Translations under genes and position numbers: made by a program
Assembly (NCBI RefSeq): GCF_009617895.1
Contig: NZ_BLAW01000001.1
Span: forward strand, 3,649,001-3,713,000
Origin: Prolixibacter sp. SD074
GTDB taxonomy: Bacteria > Bacteroidota > Bacteroidia > Bacteroidales > Prolixibacteraceae
Length of the DNA: 64,000 nt
Direction of reading: 5' to 3'
Part shown: positions 53,565-59,181 of the stretch, one piece after another
Layout of the letters: each line of letters begins with the position of its first letter
How positions within the stretch are numbered: position 1 is the stretch's first letter
The notes under the pieces: generated by a model
The model's input: the letters and a program-made list of their open reading frames with translations, nothing else
Told to the model about the DNA's origin: nothing
The model's database searches: none

Positions 53565-53588
53565 GAGGGAAAACATTTGTTCTCCCTC
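53565..53588. terminator. Hairpin between convergent genes
   Basis: GAGGGAAAACA (53565-53575) pairs with TGTTCTCCCTC (53578-53588) with one mismatch; flanking A/T runs. Confidence 0.6.
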
Positions 53589-53597
53589 AATTCAATA

Positions 53598-54761
53598 TCA
53601 TTCATTCTCAATAACCGGTAACCAGCCTTTGCGGGAAATAAGCCCGTGCCAGAGGTTATCCGGAATCACCAATTCATTTTGATCGTGGACCGAAAGTGTG
53701 GTCCGTATTTTGTCTACTGAACCGTTTTGAGCTTTCTGTACCCATTCCGGTTCCATCAGTAACTCTCGTCCCAGGGCGACAAGCGGTAAATTCCCTTCTT
53801 CGACAACTTTCAGTACATCATCCGGTGTATGTAGCGAACCAACCCCGATAACCGGAATTTTATTTCCAACCCGTTCCTGGATCAATAACGTTCTGGAGCG
53901 TTTATCCGAGGCATCGCGCATCGAACCATCCCATAAATTCATGGTGGAGATGTGGAGATAATCCAGCGGCTTTTTGGCCAAAGCATCTACCAGTTGTAGG
54001 GTGTCTTCCATTGTAATTCCCGGTTCTTCCATTTCTTCAGGCGAAAGCCGATAACCAACCGCAAAAGGCGATTTTGCATATTGTTTAACGTTTTGCAGAA
54101 CTTCATCTACTACCGCCAGCGGGAATTTCATGCGCTTCTCCAAAGTACCACCCCATACGTCGGTTCGGCGGTTGGAGTGTGGTGAGAAGAATTGCTGAAC
54201 CAGGTACGTGTTGGCGCCATGGATTTCCACCCCGTCGAAACCGGCAAGAATAGCGAGGTGTGTGGCATTTCCATAAGCTTTAATGGTGGACAGAATCTCT
54301 TCTTCCGCCATAGCCCGCGGAACGGCAGCTCCTTCGCGTTCTGCTGCAACGGCACTTGCACTGAGGGGTTGACCTCCAGGCACCTCATTCGGAGGGCACA
54401 TTCTTCCGCCATGATAGATTTGCAGAATGGCTTTGGCGCCTTCTTGCTGAATCGTCTCGGCCAAACGTTTCAGGCTTGGCAGCATTGCATCGGAGTGGGC
54501 CCCGATTTGGCCGGAAAATCCTTTGCCTTCCGGCATGATGAAGGCACAAGCGGTAGCTACTACACCCACACCGCCCGAGCGTTTTTTATAATAATTCAGT
54601 TCAGCATCTGAAACGGTACCGTCGAGGTTACCGGACCAGGTTGTCATCGGGGCCATCATGATCCGGTTTTTCAATTCAATCCCTGAAACCGGCAAACGGA
54701 ATGGTTCCCAGAGTGAAGCATATTTGGGGTTCATATAAGAATTTTTATTGTTTTCATTCAT
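53598..54761 (-). CDS. Old Yellow Enzyme family NADH:flavin oxidoreductase
   Basis: 387-aa FMN-dependent ene-reductase. Conserved parts: 'LKNRIMMAPMTTWSG', 'ILQIYHGGRMCPP', 'GFDGVEIHGANTYLVQQFFSPHSNRRTDVWGGTLEKRMKFPL' and 'PVIGVGSLHTPDDV'. It reduces activated alkenes such as enones and quinones. Last gene of a TetR-controlled operon with an aldo/keto reductase and MDR reductase. A start at 54734 (MNPKYASLWEPF) is equally likely. Confidence 0.92.
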   Translation of the reverse strand: MNENNKNSYMNPKYASLWEPFRLPVSGIELKNRIMMAPMTTWSGNLDGTVSDAELNYYKKRSGGVGVVATACAFIMPEGKGFSGQIGAHSDAMLPSLKRLAETIQQEGAKAILQIYHGGRMCPPNEVPGGQPLSASAVAAEREGAAVPRAMAEEEILSTIKAYGNATHLAILAGFDGVEIHGANTYLVQQFFSPHSNRRTDVWGGTLEKRMKFPLAVVDEVLQNVKQYAKSPFAVGYRLSPEEMEEPGITMEDTLQLVDALAKKPLDYLHISTMNLWDGSMRDASDKRSRTLLIQERVGNKIPVIGVGSLHTPDDVLKVVEEGNLPLVALGRELLMEPEWVQKAQNGSVDKIRTTLSVHDQNELVIPDNLWHGLISRKGWLPVIENE

Positions 54762-54793: not shown

Positions 54794-55771
54794 TTATGCA
54801 TTGATCTGTTTCATGCCCGTTTCGTCATAGCGGTCACCATGAATGTTGGTCATAATACTGTTGATTTCTTTTACATCTTCAGCAGATAATTTGATGTTGA
54901 CTGCCTGGATATTCGAAAGCAAGTGTTTCTGCTTGGTGGTTCCAGGAATGGGGAAGATATCCTCACCCTGATGGAGTAACCAGGCTAATGCCAGCTGTGA
55001 TGGTTGACAGCCTTTTTTCTCAGCGAGCTTCCCGATGAGTTTGACTAACTCCAGATTTTTGGCAAAGTTGTTACCCTGGAAGCGGGGCGAAAAGCGCCGG
55101 TGATCGTTCGGCTCCAAATCATCGATGCTTTTGAAGCGACCGGTCAAAAATCCTCTTCCCAACGGACTGTAAGCCACAAAACCAACACCCAATTCCCGAC
55201 AGGTTGGGAGAGTGGTCCCTTCCACATCCTGACTCCAGAGTGAATATTCGCTTTGGACTGCAGTGATGGGATGAACCGCATTGGCCCGTTTTAACGTATC
55301 GCCTGATACTTCAGAGAGTCCCAGGTAACGAACTTTTCCTTCTTTTACCAATTCAGCCATGGCGCCAACCGTTTCTTCGATGGGCGTTTGAGGATCGACA
55401 CGGTGGAGATAATACAAATCGATGGCCTCACGGCCCAGCCGCTTGAGACTGGCTTCACAGGCCTGTTTCACGTACTCCGGTTTACCGTTAAGCCCGCGAC
55501 CTTCTTTTTCGTCGCGTACAATACCGAATTTGCTGGCCAGAACCACTTTATCCCATCGATCATGCAAAGCTTTGTTCAGCAACAATTCGTTGCGGCCAAT
55601 TCCATACATGTCGGCGGTATCAATGAAATTGATTCCATGCTCAAGTGCGGCATGTAACGTTTTTATTGATTCCTGGTCCTCCGGGTTTCCATAAAATTCT
55701 GACATTCCCATGGCCCCAAGTCCAATGGGAAAAACTTCCAAATCACTGTTTCCTATTTTTCTTTTTAACAT
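54794..55771 (-). CDS. Aldo/keto reductase
   Basis: 325-aa NADPH-dependent reductase. Catalytic tetrad visible: Asp and Tyr in '[14 protein letters not shown]', Lys in '[10 protein letters not shown]', His in '[13 protein letters not shown]'. Cofactor motif '[16 protein letters not shown]' at the C-terminus. Start at 55771 ([19 protein letters not shown]) follows the family N-terminus. Ten nt separate it from the MDR gene, so they are co-transcribed. Confidence 0.93.
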
Positions 55772-55782
55772 GATTATCAATT

Positions 55783-56787
55783 TTACTTCGTTTCGACAAT
55801 TAGTTTTCCTGTATTCACTCCATCAAATAATCCGATGAAAGCTTCCGGCAACTTCTCAAATCCTTTGATAACCGTTTCCCGATGTTTTAGTTTACCCTTT
55901 TTCACCCAGTCGGTGAGCCTGGCCAAACCTTCCGGTAAACGGTTGGCATAGTTGCCGATAATAAACCCTTGCATCAAAGCGCTTTTCTTCAGAATGAGTG
56001 GTTGTATGCGCGGACCGGCCGGTACCTCTGTGGCATTATAGAGTGCGATCTGTCCACACACCGCGATGCGTGCAAATTTATTGATGTTTGCCAATACCGC
56101 ATCTGAAATGGCACCACCTACGTTATCAAAATAAATATCAACACCATCGGGGCATGCGCGGGCAATGGCTTGTTCCATGTCCTTTTCTGTATGATAGTTG
56201 ATGACCTCGTCGAAGTGAAGCTCATCTTTCAGGTAGCGAAGTTTCTCGTCACTTCCTGCAATTCCGACAACGCTACAACCATAGATTTTGGCAATTTGTC
56301 CAACTGCCGTTCCTACTGCTCCGGCTGCTCCGGAAACCACAACGGTTTCACCCTTTTTCGGCTGGCCAATATCCAGGAAACCGAAATAGGCGGTAAGTCC
56401 TGTCATTCCAAGTATTCCCAGGTAATAACTCAATGGTACCGGGTTTTTATCGACTTTTTGGACCGATGTTGCTGGTACCGTTTGGTATTCCTGCCAGGCT
56501 AACGGACGAGAAACAACCACGTCACCGGCAGAAAAATCGGGATGACGGCTCTCTGTCACTTCTGCTACTGCGCCGCCACTCATTGGTTCGCCTACCTGAA
56601 ATGGTTCGACATACGATTTGGCGTCACTCATCCGTCCACGCATATACGGATCGACCGAAATGTATAAGGATTTCAATAATAATTCGCCGTCTCCAGGAAC
56701 CGGGACTTCTATTGGTCTGATTTCAAAATTGTCTTGAGTTGGGCGACCTGCCGGACGTGATTTCAGTATAATCTGTCTATTCTGCAT
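55783..56787 (-). CDS. Zinc-independent MDR family NADP oxidoreductase (LTB4DH/CurA-like)
   Basis: 334-aa medium-chain reductase of alkenals or quinones. '[11 protein letters not shown]', Rossmann '[32 protein letters not shown]' and '[14 protein letters not shown]' are diagnostic. Lacks zinc-binding Cys. First enzyme gene of the TetR operon, with a palindrome 50-70 nt upstream. Confidence 0.93.
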
Positions 56788-56836
56788 CAATATGTTGGTT
56801 TTTATTTTATCCCAATAATGGGAAATGGTTGATAAT

Positions 56837-56858
56837 AATAAATGAACGTTCGTTTATT
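56837..56858. promoter_or_regulatory. TetR operator upstream of redox operon
   Basis: 22-bp near-perfect palindrome (core ATGAACGTTCGT, one symmetric mismatch pair). The same sequence (20 of 22 identical) occurs at 57456-57477 before the tetR gene, so it is very likely the regulator's binding site. Confidence 0.8.
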
Positions 56859-56874
56859 CTGTATATAAAAAATT

Positions 56875-57447
56875 TTAAACGGCAACGGAACGCCAGGCCG
56901 CTTCGAATATTTCGTTCAGGATATGAACATCTGGTTCTTCCTTTCGGTTCAACGCTTGCTTGACGGTATGAGTTACCGGCGCGAAAAACAGCGTGTAAAT
57001 TAGCTGATTGGACAGGTTTCTTAGAATGTCTTTTTGCCGGGCGGCTTCAAAAAGGTCGAATAGTGGCTGATGGGCACGCACTCCCTCTTCCTGGTTAATT
57101 TTCTCGATTAGAGGGCAATTCGAAAAGTTTTCCAGGAAGCGGAATTCCAGTGGATAATCTCTGATGAACTGACAATGCCGTTTCCATATAGTCTGGAATG
57201 TTTCCTTGGTTGGCTCAAGATGTGCCTCGGTTGGAATATAAGCCATACTTTTCTTTCTCTCAAGATGAAGATAGAGTTTGTTCAGCATATCTTCCTTATT
57301 CTCGAAATAAAGGTAGAGAGTAGCTGGCGCCAGGTTGGCTTCGCGGGCAATTTTGGAAACAGAAGTTCCCTGAAAACCCTCGATGTTAATTAACTTAACA
57401 GCCGCCTGGTAAATACGAATAATCTTGTCTTCATCCTTGAGGCGCAT
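56875..57447 (-). CDS. TetR/AcrR family transcriptional regulator
   Basis: 190-aa repressor. N-terminal HTH: 'DEDKIIRIYQAAVKLINIEGFQGTSVSKIAREANLAPATLYLYFENKEDML' is a standard TetR domain; the C-terminal ligand domain (60-190) is unassigned. Probably senses a reactive or aromatic compound and represses the following reductase genes and itself: operators flank it on both sides. The ATG lies 4 nt after a -7 element, suggesting a leaderless mRNA. Confidence 0.92.
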   Translation of the reverse strand: MRLKDEDKIIRIYQAAVKLINIEGFQGTSVSKIAREANLAPATLYLYFENKEDMLNKLYLHLERKKSMAYIPTEAHLEPTKETFQTIWKRHCQFIRDYPLEFRFLENFSNCPLIEKINQEEGVRAHQPLFDLFEAARQKDILRNLSNQLIYTLFFAPVTHTVKQALNRKEEPDVHILNEIFEAAWRSVAV

Positions 57448-57451
57448 AACG

Positions 57452-57477
57452 CAAATATAAATGAATGTTCGTTTATT
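57452..57477 (-). promoter_or_regulatory. tetR promoter and operator
   Basis: Minus-strand TATATTTG (57452-57459) overlaps the palindrome at 57456-57477 (core ATGAATGTTCGT). Repressor bound here would block the promoter, so autorepression is expected. Transcription would begin at or next to the ATG at 57447. Confidence 0.75.
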
Positions 57478-57569
57478 TTAGAATTTTAACAAGAAATAAT
57501 GATGAAACCGGTTTGGTTTAAACTTAAGATCACACAGACGGTAACGATGGTGAAATAAGTGGGGAAAGG

Positions 57570-58559: not shown

Positions 58560-59181
58560 GGATGAGGATATGAACGAATCCAAACTATCTGGGCTATGGA
58601 AAAGTGTCTTTTATGCAGGTTCACCTGACAGATTTGAAATACATCCGTGGTGGATCGCTAAAGGAACCTGTTGTATATGCACACGATACCTGGCACTATT
58701 TTATTGGCGCGTCTGAACCAACAGTAACCTGGCTTATGGCAATGTGGATTACGCTCCGGACTTCCAGGCTACCGAGCAATGGGTTTATACCCATTTTGGA
58801 TTGGACGGGTCATCGTATATTGCCGAAATCAATTATTTGAAGGGATGGTTGCAGGACCAGCTCAACTGGATGGATACTCAGTGGTTGCTTGAGGCCGGAA
58901 TTGACGATAAACCAGTATTGGCTGGTTCCGGCATTCATGTTTATCCAAATCCATTTACCGATCAAATTCATCTTTCTGTTGAAATAGTTGGCAGGAGTCC
59001 GATGCAGATTGAGCTGTGGTCCCCTCAGGGGCAAATGGTGTCCTTGGGTGAACGAACGCCCGGAGGTGATGGGCAAGGCCATCTCAGTATATCTCTCCCG
59101 AAGCTTTCCAGGGGAATTTACCTGCTGAAAGTGTGGCAGCAAAATCAGCCGCCAAAGGTGGCGAAGGTTCTGAAAAACTGA
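58560..59181 (+). pseudogene. CotH-kinase-like protein with T9SS sorting domain, frameshifted
   Basis: Three reading frames together encode CotH-type fragments: 'YAGSPDRFEIHPWW' (near 58612), 'DTWHYFIGASEP' (near 58686), then 'NLAYGNVDYAPDFQATEQW' leading into 'LKGWLQDQLNWMDTQWL'. The last frame continues intact to a C-terminal T9SS sorting domain ('VYPNPFTDQIHLSV...LSRGIYLLKVWQQ'). Several frameshifts and a missing N-terminal half show decay. The intact tail, about 145 codons from 58744, is not a gene by itself. Confidence 0.6.

Follow-up and report, generated by a model that had tools for sequence, protein, structure and literature searches.

The window, i.e. the whole analysed stretch of 64,000 nucleotides, carries on its minus strand a gene for a TetR-family regulator followed by three reductase genes, in the order and direction that an earlier note on this DNA had given and that open reading frames and domain searches bear out. 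The tetR gene (56875..57447) is followed by genes for an MDR ene-reductase of the curcumin reductase/prostaglandin reductase type (55783..56790, starting with TTG at 56790 or with ATG at 56787), an aldo-keto reductase (AKR; 54794..55780) and a flavin reductase of the Old Yellow Enzyme family (OYE; 53598..54761). The MDR protein scores 432.1 bits against the NCBIfam model CurA (curcumin/dihydrocurcumin reductase), just under the cut-off of 440, and 39.5 bits against the AcuI model, whose cut-off is also 440, and is thus not an AcuI. AKR and OYE score above their Pfam cut-offs and carry the motif residues, in OYE the HGANTY motif, which we take to be those expected for their families. By family, two of the three enzymes presumably reduce the C=C bond of enones and one reduces carbonyls. 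A terminator-like hairpin past OYE (53565..53588, minus strand), detected in a hairpin scan, is the probable operon end; by itself it says little, since the region contains 8 terminator-like sites and shuffled sequences 6.0. A gene for a TonB-C protein lies 122 bp upstream of tetR. On the plus strand, an open frame at 58744-59181 contains what resembles, by eye, a C-terminal sorting domain, lacks a clear gene start and is possibly a gene remnant.

The regulator, a protein of 190 amino acids, is placed in the TetR family by its TetR_N domain (PF00440, 52 bits against a cut-off of 24) and in a subfamily by its C-terminal domain TetR_HI_0893_C (PF22604, 44.6 bits against a gathering score of 27). 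An AlphaFold2 model (pLDDT 88.5) contains ten helices, and its structure matches are TetR structures. The closest solved fold is Maqu_1417 (3pas; Z 22.3, rmsd 2.3, 189 aligned residues), followed by BCE_2991 (4me9; Z 21.6, rmsd 2.6, 185 aligned) and by 3ppb, 3he0 and HI0893 (3qkx) at Z 19.4-19.6, the last with Z 19.4 and rmsd 2.3 over 182 aligned residues; RamR and FadR match the model lower than these five. In an alignment of 84 rows, the protein is conserved from residue 1 onward (R2 in 67/84, K4 in 69/84, D5 in 68/84 and K8 in 83/84), so that the start codon is probably right. Position 111 is a cysteine in 11 of the 84 rows, and at position 92 cysteine falls outside the six commonest residues. 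Neither of the two cysteines of the regulator is thus conserved, which gives no support to a thiol sensor common to these proteins.

Two matching near-palindromes flank tetR, at 56838-56859 (ATAAATGAACGTTCGTTTATTC) and 57457-57478 (ATAAATGAATGTTCGTTTATTT). A direct comparison confirms that they share 20 of 22 bases, as had been claimed, and a repeat search of the window returned them as 21-mers at 95% identity. Within the 20-bp cores, 9 of 10 positions pair in the 56838 site and 8 of 10 in the 57457 site. The core at 57457..57476, the predicted operator 1, ends 9 bp short of the tetR ATG and falls within the putative promoter of that gene, and the predicted operator 2 (56838..56857) lies 17 bp past the tetR stop, ahead of MDR. 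The overlap with a promoter element noted earlier was also found: operator 1 shares three bases with the -7 element TATATTTG (57452..57459, minus strand), which matches TAnnTTTG at 6/6 positions and has its first base 12 nt upstream of the A in the tetR start codon. When the 3.96-Mb single-contig genome was scanned with the pattern ATAAAYGAAYGTTCGTTTAT, both tetR-flanking sites were recovered at 0 mismatches, no others appeared at <=2 mismatches and three extra places matched at 3 mismatches; the reversed control gave 0 matches genome-wide. Random occurrence across the genome, named in the earlier note as what would speak against the idea, is thus not what the scan returned. The scan also rules out a wider regulon in this genome at <=2 mismatches, and the 'regulon' of the earlier note is better read as a single local operon. 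Directly past the tetR stop (56858-56877), an A-run is followed by a T-run (TAAAATTTTTT and similar); this feature recurs, mostly just ahead of operator 2, in distant Bacteroidota members with about 29-38% identity (L102, L103, L105, L112 and L113).

The regulator is patchily distributed, as none of three same-genus genomes has a TetR match at E<=1e-20. At this threshold tetR was found in 4 of 61 genomes of near relatives, and at E<=1e-25 TetR matches occurred in 14 of 395 genomes of a phylum sample and in 7 of 393 of an order sample, the own genome being included in all three counts. A scan of named genomes yielded 75 TetR loci: three are from Bacteroidales (42-50% identity), and the rest belong mostly to Paenibacillus and further Firmicutes. 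These Bacteroidales relatives, and a DnaK 83% identical to that of Parabacteroides over 83% of the stretch, point to Bacteroidota as the phylum of the present genome, and the genomes sampled as being of its phylum are labelled Bacteroidota accordingly. A plasmid search for relatives returned 18 records, all below 60% identity and none useful. Together with 16 larger regions and six more loci, and minus two without a TetR match at the cut-off (L097 and L098), the set comprised 95 loci besides the window. Seven fragmentary or distant loci (L058, L066, L088, L092, L094, L095 and L096) were retained in the motif scan of these 95 and kept outside the tree and the register, site-likeness, downstream-promoter and looser-score counts. 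In L058, the tetR reading frame is split into two pieces.

Scanning the 95 loci with a motif derived from the window (<=3 mismatches of 20) revealed 50 matches in the 12,371 positions before tetR, 48 in the 24,159 positions after it and 11 in 931,133 positions elsewhere. These densities of 4.0, 2.0 and 0.012 per kb correspond to an enrichment over elsewhere of about 340-fold before and 170-fold after tetR, in counts that are not independent because the relatives are Paenibacillus-heavy. A match was present upstream in 49 loci, downstream in 43, on both sides in 28 and on neither in 31. Under a looser score, 51 of 89 loci, counting the window, have their best upstream site 9 bp (38 loci) or 10 bp (13 loci) ahead of the start codon, and 25 of the 89 show no downstream site. 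A search of six Firmicute genomes (5.1-8.7 Mb) with the Firmicute version of the site gave 12 matches, and their coordinates place every one at the tetR locus. Upstream and downstream sites of the same locus differ by 4.51 mismatches compared to 5.57 in shuffled pairings (0/5000, n=59), a likeness to which shared ancestry or a recent duplication may contribute. The flanking sites in relatives, their restriction to the tetR locus in the own genome and in the six Firmicute genomes, and their likeness strongly support, at the level of sequence, the earlier prediction that the regulator would repress its own gene and control the neighbouring operon.

The sites, their conservation and spacing, the gene order and the promoter register, as established by sequence and comparison, probably describe a self-contained repressor cassette consisting of an autorepressed TetR with a leaderless mRNA, two matched operators and release by a small molecule. 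A TetR-family dimer would bind the two palindromes. At operator 1 it would lie across the tetR promoter and switch off its own gene, and at operator 2 it would block transcription of MDR-AKR-OYE, either from a local promoter or from tetR read-through. The regulator would be released by a small molecule, for which an electrophilic enone, aldehyde or quinone is the likeliest candidate. The proposed start of the tetR mRNA at its AUG would lead to weak synthesis of the repressor and good synthesis of the enzymes.

A serious rival, to which we give somewhat less than an even chance, is that a single promoter drives tetR-MDR-AKR-OYE as one leaderless operon, like acuR-acuI-dddL. Operator 2, some 620 bp away from operator 1, would then have no promoter of its own and act as a roadblock or a looping partner. 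The rival is serious because the best -7 element before MDR, near operator 2, reaches no more than 4/6 in the window and the hairpin scan detected nothing terminator-like in the space from tetR to MDR. In 31 of 89 loci, with varied cargo, site 2 begins 10-29 bp past the tetR stop. Hexamers of the -35/-10 type, at 4/6 each, surround the downstream site in only 21 of 47 non-Bacteroidota loci, a modest excess over a background of 141 in 1200 random places and 257 in 1200 base-shuffled sequences. Against a single operon, a downstream site lies within TTGATT-17-TATTAT, followed by a long leader, in Paenibacillus loci with OYE cargo (L041-L043 and L060), and in several Firmicute loci (L033, L037, L038, L043 and L060) a hairpin with a T-run, terminator-like by eye, is located between tetR and the second operator.

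The gene that follows tetR varies among relatives. Among 73 first downstream genes (the window MDR and those of 72 of 83 loci in which a gene begins no more than 420 bp further on and runs in the direction of tetR), SDR (9), MBL-fold hydrolase (8), nitroreductase (8), AKR (7) and OYE (7) are followed by Lon (5), outer-membrane efflux (3), DUF2860 (3), ADH_N_2 (MDR; 2) and NADPH-FMN reductase (2), Pfam counts that were drawn from the 25 families listed out of 55 matched, with ten examples checked. MFS proteins are also found among the cargo of some relatives. The nearest relatives (L024-L026), joined to the window TetR with support 100/97, carry nitroreductase cargo. When the cargo labels, in 15 groups of which one is a mixed 'other', are mapped onto an 89-row tree of TetR, at least 29 changes are needed compared to a minimum of 14 and a shuffled mean of 56.1; cargo partly follows lineage and is partly exchanged. 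In a clostridial branch (L072, L078, L080, L084, L086 and L087) tetR lies ahead of a Lon protease gene, with a Shine-Dalgarno match of dG -6.0 or stronger in 6/6 loci and operator-like sites upstream in 6/6 and downstream in 5/6. Two further loci (L107 and L108) carry after tetR a nitroreductase, an MDR, an alcohol-dehydrogenase-like and a DJ-1/PfpI-like gene, the last two named by eye, and look like a carbonyl-stress cluster.

An electrophile is a plausible inducer. The redox or electrophile theme of the earlier note fits the reductase cargo of relatives and does not extend to the MBL-fold, Lon, efflux and DUF2860 cargo that also occurs. It is possible, though less likely than not, that the inducer is instead a lipid, a drug or another hydrophobic compound and that the reductases are general detoxification cargo: RamR and FadR are among the solved relatives by fold, outer-membrane efflux, MFS or Lon proteins form the cargo of certain relatives, and conserved cysteines are absent from TetR. 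The frequent occurrence of carbonyl, ene and nitro reductases as cargo argues against this and is in keeping with an electrophile.

A further part of the proposed cassette is a leaderless repressor mRNA. The consensus of the -7 element, TAnnTTTG, is numbered -12 to -5. With TATATTTG taken as this element, +1 falls on the first base of the tetR start codon (57445..57447, minus strand), and as only 4 nt separate element and ATG, the mRNA is predicted to lack a leader. TAnnTTTG at -12 occurs at 2 of 2320 ATGs of the window, namely tetR and a 7-codon ORF, and among the 52 window ORFs of at least 150 aa, tetR is the sole one with the element at offset 12, one other having it at 13. In Bacteroidota relatives, besides the window, the exact element stands at -12 in 5 of 28, compared to 5 of 10,663 other ATGs, and is missing there in 23. 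In several of these members the element lies 24-27 nt upstream of the start codon, which implies a leader, or no element is clear.

In Firmicute relatives the same register is formed by a different promoter type. Hexamers for -35 and -10 (each at least 4/6, the -10 at -12 or -13 from the ATG) fit the leaderless register in 40 of 52 loci and in 3 of 8 loci of other non-Bacteroidota phyla, against a background, within those loci, of 180 among 12,267 other ATGs. Of the 40 register-fitting Firmicute loci, 39 have no Shine-Dalgarno match (dG > -4) and 38 contain an operator-like site between the hexamers, ending 9 or 10 bp before the ATG. In a control on one Paenibacillus genome, a Shine-Dalgarno match was present at some start of 27 of the 30 TetR genes examined and missing from three, among them the family member; none of these genes reaches 9/12 for the promoter, the family member scoring 8 with its -10 one base off. 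This control covered the 30 of 53 TetR matches with loci and took the best of all starts, family members being scored at one start. Clostridial loci L072, L078, L080, L082 and L084 keep the -35, the operator-like site and the -10, but with a Shine-Dalgarno leader.

That the tetR mRNA is not leaderless, and starts further upstream or is read from the TonB-C-protein gene, appears unlikely. The TTG expected at -33 of tetR is absent from the window sequence, which would fit such a reading, and the missing Shine-Dalgarno sequence is uninformative since only 2 of 12 TetR genes of the own genome, window tetR included, have one. The exact -7 element in register, and the same register in Firmicutes with another -10 type, argue for a leaderless start. 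Finally, a chance repeat of AT-rich intergenic DNA, suggested by nothing but the base composition of both sites, can practically be dismissed, given that the genome-wide ATAAAYGAAYGTTCGTTTAT counts with 0 reversed-control matches, and likewise the cross-species counts, contradict it.

The new element reported here is a predicted operator fused to a promoter so placed that transcription of tetR is expected to begin with the first base of the start codon. Whether this can be generalised is an evenly balanced matter: the locus may represent a TetR subfamily that has its operator, promoter and start codon joined in one module, whose register is conserved across phyla despite a changed -10 (TATTAT in Firmicutes, TAnnTTTG in Bacteroidota), with a leaderless repressor mRNA and a second matched operator for interchangeable detoxification cargo. 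If so, the clostridial members with a Shine-Dalgarno leader offer a natural experiment on the reason for the leaderless repressor, and the leaderless-repressor design would extend to Firmicutes and Bacteroidota. The analysis provides a testable operator and promoter architecture for a widespread TetR subfamily, and the cassette is a candidate for a small biosensor of electrophiles. In the available portion of an RNA-seq study of Paenibacillus riograndensis, 2 leaderless genes are given among 1269 analysed 5' UTRs, one for a stress-induced and one for a hypothetical protein, neither called TetR there (PMC5670726). Against this number, a conserved leaderless repressor in Paenibacillus would stand out.

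Searches of the open-access literature returned no experiments on the window regulator and no paper combining TetR family, OYE, AKR, operator and repressor; a related paper concerns, in its accessible part, an SDR ene-reductase (PMC10269891). The sole match to the operator strings was a primer sequence. Among solved structures, HI_0893, Maqu_1417 and BCE_2991 are the closest folds and best profile matches to the window TetR, and their titles give family and locus only, without ligand or operator. FadR of Bacillus (YsiA) is similar in the DNA-binding domain. Its NCBIfam model scores 53.4 bits, with the best stretch confined to residues 6-60, far under the family cut-off of 200. In the NemR-NemA system of Escherichia coli, a TetR-family repressor beside an OYE-family reductase mediates an electrophile response, and NemR senses via cysteines. 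The window shares with it a TetR repressor near an OYE, whereas the cysteines of the window TetR are not conserved among its relatives.

The closest parallel is AcuR-AcuI(-DddL) of Rhodobacter sphaeroides, with which the window shares a TetR-family mRNA predicted to be leaderless, a promoter-overlapping operator and an adjoining MDR gene. For AcuR, the available text of the original study reports a 5'-RACE start at the AUG, constitutive operator mutants, low repressor translation and inactive reporter fusions of the intergenic space; a TTGATT...TATTAT promoter is overlapped by the operator TAATAGAC-n6-GTCTATTA, the MDR gene adjoins and acrylate releases the repressor (PMC3017554). The same text describes the arrangement in taxonomically diverse bacteria and the leaderless repressor design in lambda cI, Tn1721 tetR and AcuR (PMC3017554). 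The TTGATT and TATTAT of AcuR stand at the same places as the leaderless-register hexamers of the relatives studied here; in the window, the start-at-AUG register and the overlapping operator are present by sequence, without a TTG at -33. AcuR was not recognised among the 50 alignment matches listed for TetR, which carries no weight either way. In contrast to AcuR-AcuI, the window has two sites, both unlike TAATAGAC-n6-GTCTATTA, its MDR is of the curcumin-reductase and not the AcuI type, and the cargo of its relatives varies. With AcuR, the leaderless TetR cassette is a kind already known, and the present one differs in operator sequence, second site, MDR type and exchange of cargo.
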